From Patescibacteria group bacterium (GTDB lineage: Bacteria; Patescibacteriota; Minisyncoccia; JAHIHE01; JAGLIN01): DNA of 37,367 nt. Shown piece after piece: positions 33,161-37,145 of this stretch (position 1 is its first letter; each line of letters opens with the position of its first letter). The notes under the pieces are model-generated. The model ran no database searches, was not told the origin of the DNA, and worked only from the letters and a program-made list of their open reading frames with translations. The translations under genes were made by a program, and so were the position numbers. The DNA lies in contig JARGGI010000010.1 in the NCBI GenBank assembly GCA_029210775.1, forward strand, positions 1-37,367, read 5' to 3'.

Positions 33161-35179
<2,019 letters not shown>

Positions 35180-35369: not shown

Positions 35370-35413
35370 AAATGTATAACATTTCTCACGGCCGTGAGAA
35401 ATGTTATACATTT
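35370..35413. repeat. 44-bp perfect palindrome P1
   Basis: AAATGTATAACATTTCTCACGGCCGTGAGAAATGTTATACATTT; every symmetric pair checked. Confidence 0.98.
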
Positions 35414-35419
35414 TATATC

Positions 35420-35950
35420 TTATAATTCTATTTCTTCAATTAAAAATAATTTTACATATGGATCAAGAGAATGTTTTTTTAAAATAAATTCTGTTTCCTT
35501 TTGAACATCATATGGACAAACCCAAATACTCTGTTGAAGTAATTTATAATTCAAAATTCGTAAATTATCACGTAACAAATCCCTCAACCATCTTTTTTTC
35601 TCTGGAATATCAAAAACTATCATCTGCCACTTCCCGTCTCGCCTTTTTTGTCCACCTTTTATTTTAAATTTTACTCTTAAAACTTTTTCAGCCCCTTTTT
35701 TTGTCAAAACAATTCCTTTGTTTTGTTTTAGGTTCTTTATTTTAATATAACCATTCCTTTTTAAATAGCTTACCAAATGACTAAATTGCTGTTTTGTTTT
35801 TCTTTTCTTGTGTTGTTGCTTTAATTCATAGAGAGCAGGACAACAAACTTCCTTCATTGTCCGAGGAGCAAATATATCAAAAGTGCTATCAAATTTTTCA
35901 ATATAATTATACAAATCTAATAAAAAACTTTCAGTGATCTGCAATTTCAT
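35420..35950 (-). CDS. PaaX-like / Cas2-fold protein with N-terminal winged helix
   Basis: 176 aa; N-terminal helical/wHTH region, C-terminal 'KWQMIVFDIPEKKRWLRDLLRDNLRILNYKLLQQSIWVCPYDVQKETEFILKKHSLDPYVKLFLIEEIEL' typical of the Cas2-like PaaX middle domain. Confidence 0.78.
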   Translation of the reverse strand: MKLQITESFLLDLYNYIEKFDSTFDIFAPRTMKEVCCPALYELKQQHKKRKTKQQFSHLVSYLKRNGYIKIKNLKQNKGIVLTKKGAEKVLRVKFKIKGGQKRRDGKWQMIVFDIPEKKRWLRDLLRDNLRILNYKLLQQSIWVCPYDVQKETEFILKKHSLDPYVKLFLIEEIEL

Positions 35951-36005
35951 AATAATTTTCGCTAAATTTTAAATTAAAAATTATCTCTAAAATTCTACTA
36001 ACTTT

Positions 36006-36034
36006 ATTATACACCCATTTATAAAATAAGTATA
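36006..36034 (-). promoter_or_regulatory. Possible promoter of the Cas2/PaaX-like gene, with palindrome P2 overlapping the -35 region
   Basis: Minus-strand TATAAT at 36011-36006; position 17 bp upstream (36034-36029, TATACT) lies inside P2. Confidence 0.4.
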
Positions 36035-36067
36035 ACTTTTCTCACGGCCGTGAGAAAAGTTATACTT
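36028..36067. repeat. 40-bp perfect palindrome P2
   Basis: AAGTATAACTTTTCTCACGGCCGTGAGAAAAGTTATACTT; shares core GTATAAC[A/T]TTTCTCACGGCCGTGAGAAA[T/A]GTTATAC with P1. Confidence 0.98.
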
Positions 36068-36142
36068 TTATAATATAGTTTGAAATAAAGAGAAATTTCA
36101 ATTGATTAAAATATTAGGCATAATGATAAAAAATATACAATT

Positions 36143-36286
36143 ACTTCAAATTAAGAAATAACTAAATTTGTCATAGTAGGTCTTTCTTTATACATACAGA
36201 CTTGTTAAACTATGATAAATTTAGTGCGTTTTCCACCCTTCAACAAGCTCAAGTGACAAGTATATTGAATTTCGTAATTTAAAATA
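36143..36286. repeat. Degenerate, inverted second copy of the 9884-10007 MITE-like element
   Basis: Reverse complement reads 'aattcaatatacttgtcacttgagcttgttgaagggtggaaaacgcactaaatttatcatagttt', aligning with 'aattcaatatatttgtcaccctgagcttgtcaaaggatggaaaatgcgtcaaatttatcatagttt'. Confidence 0.75.
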
Positions 36287-36287
36287 A

Positions 36288-37145
36288 TTAAAAAATAAAC
36301 AGATTGAAATACCACTTAATAATTATTTCTCCCCAAAACAAAGAAACAAAAGTACCAGCGACTAAAAATGGACCAAATGGAACCATACTTTTCATCTTTT
36401 TTTTGCCTGCAAAAATAAGAGCTAATCCAAAAATAGAACCAAAGATAAATGACAAAAAAACAGCAAGTAAAATCAGTGGCCAACCCAAAATTAATCCCAT
36501 CAAAAAAGCAAGCTTCACATCACCACCCCCCATTCCATTACCTTTAGTTAATAAAAAAATTATCAGAAAAAAACCAAAAGCGGAAAATGCTGCAACTAAA
36601 GTATTAAAAAATTGAGAAGCAAAAAGAAGAAGAAATAATACCGAAATCAAACCATTTCCTGAAAAAACATAATCAAGTCTCATATAATCATTCAAAACAA
36701 AATCAACTACAAAATTATAAACCAACGAAACAGCAATTGCAGGAAATATAATTTTATCAGGAATAATGTAATGTCTGATGTCAAAAACAGAAACTACAAT
36801 TAGGGCAGAAATAATTAATAACAAATAGAACAACTTGGTGCTTAATAACTGAAAAGAAAAATATGGGAAATAAAAAGCGACCAAAACAAACAAAATTCCA
36901 GTTCCAATTTCAACAAGAGGATATTGCCAAGAAATTTTTTTCAAACAATATCTGCATTTTCCTTTCAATAACAAAAAACTAAAAACAGGAAACAAATCAA
37001 GCCACGACAAAACATGTTTACATTTTGGGCATCTTGATCTGTCATTTACAATTTTTTCTTCAGTTTCCAAACGATAAATAACCACATTCAAAAAACTGCC
37101 AGCAACAAGACCGAGAATAAAAATAAAGATATAAAGAATAGACAT
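36288..37145 (-). CDS. pilD: Type IV prepilin peptidase (A24 family)
   Basis: 285 aa; 'GSFLNVVIYRLE', CPKC...CRYC, 'DIRHYIIPDKI', 'GNGMGGGDVKLAFLMGLILGW'. Confidence 0.93.
   Translation of the reverse strand: MSILYIFIFILGLVAGSFLNVVIYRLETEEKIVNDRSRCPKCKHVLSWLDLFPVFSFLLLKGKCRYCLKKISWQYPLVEIGTGILFVLVAFYFPYFSFQLLSTKLFYLLLIISALIVVSVFDIRHYIIPDKIIFPAIAVSLVYNFVVDFVLNDYMRLDYVFSGNGLISVLFLLLFASQFFNTLVAAFSAFGFFLIIFLLTKGNGMGGGDVKLAFLMGLILGWPLILLAVFLSFIFGSIFGLALIFAGKKKMKSMVPFGPFLVAGTFVSLFWGEIIIKWYFNLFIF

Follow-up and report, generated by a model that had tools for sequence, protein, structure and literature searches.

In this study, we report that a Patescibacteria gene encoding a shortened PaaX-family protein is bracketed by two perfect palindromes. 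Homologous genes are bracketed in the same way, related palindromes are dispersed between other genes, protein and palindrome co-vary, and syntenic sites are found both with and without the insertion. We lean towards the interpretation that gene and palindromes form a single-gene, REPtron-like dispersing element, and from this pattern we infer that the palindromes are mobilised by the protein. Autoregulation is likely also at work.

The bracketed gene and its promoter

The window (the whole stretch of 37,367 nucleotides that was analysed) belongs to a genome of 1.17 Mb in 65 contigs, whose closest relatives are Paceibacterota/Patescibacteria MAGs. The features considered here are:

33161-35164, minus strand: ligA, conserved neighbour, used in the empty-site comparison
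35370-35413, no strand: downstream palindrome of 44 bp, perfect and without spacer, centred between 35391 and 35392
35420-35950, minus strand: PaaX_M gene, 176 aa, with a winged-helix region (about residues 1-100) and a PaaX_M/Cas2-like domain (102-172)
36006-36011, minus strand: putative -10 box TATAAT with extended TG, at a conserved spacing from the upstream palindrome centre
36028-36067, no strand: upstream palindrome of 40 bp, perfect and without spacer, with an outer arm that would overlie the -35 region
36068-36287, no strand: pilD-side flank of the insertion site
36288-37145, minus strand: pilD, conserved neighbour, used in the empty-site comparison

The coordinates given for the gene and both palindromes in the initial annotation were exact to the base, and the two palindromes share, as described there, the core GTATAAC[A/T]TTTCTCACGGCCGTGAGAAA[T/A]GTTATAC. 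The CTCACGGCCGTGAG core occurs twice in the window against a mean of 0.08 in shuffled sequences, with none of 100 shuffles reaching two occurrences. Folding energies as single-stranded DNA were -18.1 kcal/mol for the 44-bp palindrome (z -12.4) and -15.9 kcal/mol for the 40-bp palindrome (z -9.3). A search of Rfam gave sub-threshold microRNA hairpin matches only, which were taken as chance, and no relatives were found in the viral contigs searched. The pilD-side flank also contains, at 36161-36225, an inverted repeat of 17 bp whose halves (ACTAAATTTGTCATAGT / ACTATGATAAATTTAGT) are separated by a 31-bp spacer.

The extended -10 of the window gene is TGTATAAT, and its distance of 36 nt from the upstream palindrome centre means that the -35 box would fall in the outer arm of the palindrome. 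Six of eight related loci likewise have an extended -10 that begins 36-40 nt from the centre of the palindrome, so that binding of the palindrome would block the promoter. The earlier suggestion that the palindrome overlies a plausible -35 region is a reasonable one.

A shortened PaaX-family protein

The Pfam search matched residues 102-172 of the window protein to PaaX_M, the 'Cas2-like domain' (E 1.4e-20), in agreement with the Cas2-fold, PaaX-type domain initially proposed. The protein scores 28.4 bits against the PaaX equivalog TIGR02277, below the cut-off of 264.6, and it stops after the Cas2-like domain, the C-terminal PaaX effector domain being absent. A single-sequence search against solved structures found none. 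An AlphaFold model built from 33 sequences (mean pLDDT 75, rising to about 90 over the Cas2-like part) superseded an earlier one from nine sequences that was too weak (pLDDT 60); in a fold search with this model the best solved structure was E. coli PaaX (8a39, E 2.3e-4), followed by other PaaX-like proteins, winged-helix proteins and Cas2. D114, at the position of the Cas2 active-site Asp that the initial annotation had singled out for checking, does not vary among 33 homologues. As E. coli PaaX, a protein of the same fold, is a repressor, D114 would by itself be no proof of nuclease activity.

Cas2 gave no match at E<=1 in the Pfam search of the window protein and cas1 is absent from the source genome, which upholds the view that this is not an ordinary CRISPR Cas2. 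Y1_Tnp was not matched in the Pfam, NCBIfam and fold searches, and the protein carries no known recombinase motif. Purifying selection acts on the genes (dN/dS 0.06-0.16). The protein is better named a shortened PaaX-family member (winged helix plus Cas2-like domain) than a Cas2.

Palindromes bracket homologous genes across the class

Homologues are present in 6 of the 14 genomes of the host family, and the full-length subfamily (E<1e-42) was found in 15 of 384 class genomes searched, often in multiple copies (three in G003 and four each in G072 and G352). Within the host order no complete homologue lacks a matched palindrome of its own, and in 9 of 10 both sides are occupied; a single palindrome was seen at L018, which lies at a contig end, and at L028. 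The f1 and G016 homologues each have at least one palindrome, and the palindromes are perfect at most loci. A class-wide flank-repeat test covering 250 bp per flank detected matched upstream and downstream repeats at z>6 in 27 of 29 subfamily or related genes, the exceptions being L015, with its upstream palindrome at about -321 and so beyond the tested 250 bp, and L028, with a weak upstream match (z 3.4). The palindromes thus flank the same gene family in related genomes, which is the check that the initial annotation had proposed. Under a strict score-plus-symmetry filter, seven of 219 ORFs of the sampled contigs passed, comprising six PaaX genes and one TrpR-like gene.

The repeats are imperfect at eight homologues. 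The downstream palindrome usually overlaps the stop codon or comes after it. Of the eight loci measured, seven have the upstream palindrome centred 73-97 bp ahead of the ATG, and in L014 this distance is 219 bp. Divergent PaaX paralogues were considered as palindrome-free controls and rejected, matched repeats being present in 10 of 13 (z>6). Matched imperfect palindromes were observed on both sides of the paralogues at L029-L032, L067 and L070, which are about 190-205 aa long.

In a blind test, a hairpin model (R1) built from the host order only was run on 368 class genomes. Its best matches gave 17 loci outside the order, five of which (L222, L225, L231, L232 and L233) adjoin PaaX-like genes, and at all five the far side of the gene carries a matching palindrome too. 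The chance of this rediscovery is about 8e-6 under generous assumptions.

Co-variation of protein and palindrome

Palindromes differ between loci yet stay palindromic through paired changes. Across 20 aligned copies 97.6% of stem cells are paired and 11 of 17 stem pairs have changed on both sides, while slid controls were less than 57% paired. The best match of a palindrome is its own upstream or downstream partner in 11 of 13 loci, those at L014 and L017 matching the palindrome of a sister gene better. Protein similarity correlates with palindrome similarity over 18 loci (Mantel r 0.65, p 5e-5) and also within the order (r 0.31, p 0.03).

Solo palindromes between genes

Palindromes also occur alone between genes, at 2-30 per gene-bearing genome. 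When plus and minus matches were halved, R1 sites numbered about 8 in the window genome, 18 in G003, 30 in G009, 23 in G010, 14 in G001 and 0-4 in the rest. Palindrome number follows gene copies (Spearman 0.79; Mann-Whitney p 0.001). For G000, arm identity is 0.94 within the genome versus 0.59 between genomes. Counting against protein-driven spread is G001, in which no PaaX homologue was detected beside about 14 palindromes (L116-L121, L038 and L052); either gene loss or an assembly gap may account for this. In the closed G072 genome, half of which was read (400-kb sample), two gene-specific palindromes also occur solo elsewhere. The initial annotation had held that a unit would be refuted if the same palindromes were frequent at loci lacking the gene family. 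Such loci do exist, but mostly in gene-bearing genomes, which is the REP pattern.

All 64 solo copies fall outside ORFs of 100 aa or longer. By setting, 43 are between tandem, 10 between convergent and 5 between divergent gene pairs, and 28 of the 43 tandem copies are nearer to the preceding stop codon. Paired solo palindromes of different sequence type, about 70 bp apart, were seen at L082 (1524/1593), L100 (1528/1600) and L108 (1527/1599) and recall BIME-like clusters. A separate repeated palindrome family, ACAACATTCCAACATTCTGCAGAATGTTGGAATGTTGT, was noticed at L143 and L146 (G072 276140, 323237 and 323558).

Full and empty syntenic sites

For the ligA-pilD comparison suggested by the initial annotation, the two genes are neighbours in 12 genomes. 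The site is full (gene plus two palindromes) in G000, G003 and G009, representing three genera, and empty in eight genomes, where 21-233 bp between the genes hold neither gene nor palindrome. In G001 it carries a lone palindrome without the gene, nearly identical to the downstream copy of G009. The protein copies at the ligA site fall into three clades, as do the copies 5' of leuS.

Six solo sites of the window genome were compared with relatives. Relatives with the same two flanking genes lack the palindrome at the rsmA site (8 genomes), the ychF site (9) and the adk site (5), and one of the six is common to G010. One site is filled in G000, G009 and G001, with the G000 palindrome on the opposite side of a conserved block from those of G009 and G001, which indicates independent insertion. 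Position thus shifts readily, a behaviour of inserted elements and not of operators that are conserved. Full and empty sites were also compared for target duplication; the intergenic DNA is too diverged, and no duplication could be read at the junctions.

A proposed mechanism and its alternatives

Both the layout and the behaviour across genomes give good support to the RAYT/REP-like reading of the initial annotation, with matched flanking palindromes, intergenic solo copies, full and empty syntenic sites and protein-palindrome co-variation. We propose that a protein dimer would bind its cognate palindrome, either as duplex or as extruded hairpin, and that the upstream palindrome, once bound, would repress the gene's own promoter. 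With less certainty than for binding, the protein may be the trans-acting factor that lets the palindromes, and sometimes the whole unit, spread, or the spreading agent may be the replication and repair machinery of the host working on the hairpin once it is bound. Solo copies could arise through mobilisation of a 36-48-nt hairpin in trans, or when a gene is lost from between its palindromes, for which the ligA site of G001 is an example. The chemical step could be performed by the protein as a Cas2-like nuclease, by an enzyme of the host, or by template switching that the hairpin drives; the protein may also act on or cleave cruciforms, the first of which the initial annotation suggested. Points against a dispersing element are that no target duplication could be read, that a known recombinase motif is lacking, that E. 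coli PaaX with its shared fold is a repressor, that eight homologues have imperfect repeats, and that the upstream match at L028 is weak. A narrower proposal, in which the winged-helix/Cas2-fold protein recognises and itself processes its own hairpin, spreading hairpins and gene as a non-HUH analogue of the REPtron, is tentative, and we hold it with some doubt.

It is unlikely, in our judgement, that the protein is instead an autorepressor with a regulon, the bracketing palindromes being paired operators (perhaps looping) and the solo copies fast-turnover operators of other genes. The known PaaX represses its own promoter and binds the inverted repeat TGATTC(N27)GAATCA (PMC9493321), and both the nearest solved fold and the constant distance of the -10 box from the upstream palindrome fit such a role. 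An operator would not be expected, however, between convergent genes or nearer to a preceding stop codon, where 10 and 28 of the solo copies lie, nor at syntenic sites that are mostly empty in relatives. A downstream operator copy is moreover kept at nearly every gene, and perfect symmetry of 40-50 bp exceeds the usual need of a dimer. The autoregulator with paired operators offered in the initial annotation is probably real, the palindrome lying over the -35 region, but is insufficient alone because solo copies occur 3' of genes and between convergent genes and are missing at syntenic sites.

A role in chromosome organisation, with protein-bound scattered palindromes serving the nucleoid or segregation in the manner of MatP/matS or Noc/NBS, would suit dispersed intergenic sites and a cognate protein under purifying selection. 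We consider it improbable, given only 2-30 sites with little positional conservation, and a patchy, multi-copy gene with its own site type per copy. Still less probable is that the palindromes are chiefly RNA hairpins, acting as 3' ends or terminators, or as stabilisers, of their own and neighbouring mRNAs. Both window palindromes do score as terminator-like and many solo copies follow stop codons, but the upstream copy precedes the probable promoter and so would be outside the mRNA, the U-tracts are weak, and the protein-palindrome co-variation is left unexplained. That a Y1/RAYT transposase elsewhere mobilises REP-like palindromes, their adjacency to the PaaX gene being incidental, is hardly credible: Y1_Tnp genes occur in 15 of 18 genomes, but G007 and G013 have strong Y1 matches and no palindromes, G016 has palindromes and no Y1 match, and a matched bracket is particular to genes of the PaaX type.

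Comparison with known systems

REPtrons (RAYT/TnpA-REP with REP hairpins) consist of a hairpin-flanked gene, form type-specific pairs and have intergenic solo copies, often 3' of genes; the gene can be lost with the repeats kept, and protein and hairpin co-evolve (PMC3733652, PMC8266576). Like them, the dispersing element favoured here has cognate hairpins that flank the gene and are dispersed between genes, several type-specific gene/hairpin pairs per genome, gene loss with repeats kept, and co-evolution. Unlike them, it has a winged-helix/Cas2-like PaaX relative between the repeats and no Y1/HUH tyrosine transposase, and the arms of the listed palindromes inspected are symmetric, with no conserved one-sided GTAG/CGTC tag at the stem foot. 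Palindrome copies number 2-30, whereas REPtrons have hundreds. As both the HUH transposase and the GTAG tag are lacking, the unit is not a REPtron by membership. The CGTC-tagged REPs are also dispersed palindromes without a dedicated, classical transposase (PMC3733652), but here a cognate protein gene lies between two palindrome copies.

With PaaX repressors (E. coli PaaX 8a39; 3l09; Rv0674 3kfw) the protein shares a winged helix followed by a Cas2-like domain and likely autoregulation through a symmetric site. It differs in having no C-terminal phenylacetyl-CoA-binding domain and no adjacent paa genes seen, and in belonging to a multi-copy, mobile-looking family bracketed on both sides. It resembles the Cas2 of CRISPR-Cas in its ferredoxin-like fold and invariant first-strand Asp (D114), but has a fused winged helix, no cas1 and a weak sequence match to Cas2. 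Our literature search, with subscription papers outside its scope, found nothing joining PaaX with Cas2 or Patescibacteria, nor REP with Patescibacteria.

TrpR-like genes and significance of the findings

The sole non-PaaX gene passing the strict filter, at L144:17674-18087 (minus strand), is TrpR-like (PF01371, E 4.6e-8) and has TTTCAACTACGATATATCGTAGTT as its bracket. Among 12 further TrpR-like loci, six had matched palindromic flanks (z 8-23); the bracketed loci in the same class are L243, L244, L246, L247, L248 and L250, an example being CTTACCCTATTACATGGCTGTAATAGGGTAAG at L246. This points to palindrome binding rather than to the Cas2 fold as the element common to the PaaX and TrpR-like brackets. 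With an unrelated TrpR fold in the same bracket, it may not be the Cas2-like domain that matters most, which lowers our confidence in a Cas2-catalysed step and raises the interest of the class as a whole.

Together, the gene and its palindromes resemble a small family of DNA that spreads itself, of a type that had not been linked to a PaaX-type protein before. If this is true, genomes of Patescibacteria, at sizes near 1 Mb, would harbour a widespread REP-like system with a PaaX/Cas2-fold partner, a candidate mobiliser would be at hand for dispersed palindromes that have no known transposase, and the orphan 'Cas2/PaaX-like' genes of Patescibacteria would be explained. It would also offer a possible picture of a Cas2-fold protein working outside CRISPR. 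Should the same bracket hold for the TrpR-like genes, the PaaX unit would belong to a broader class of genes that encode DNA-binding proteins and are bracketed by palindromes.
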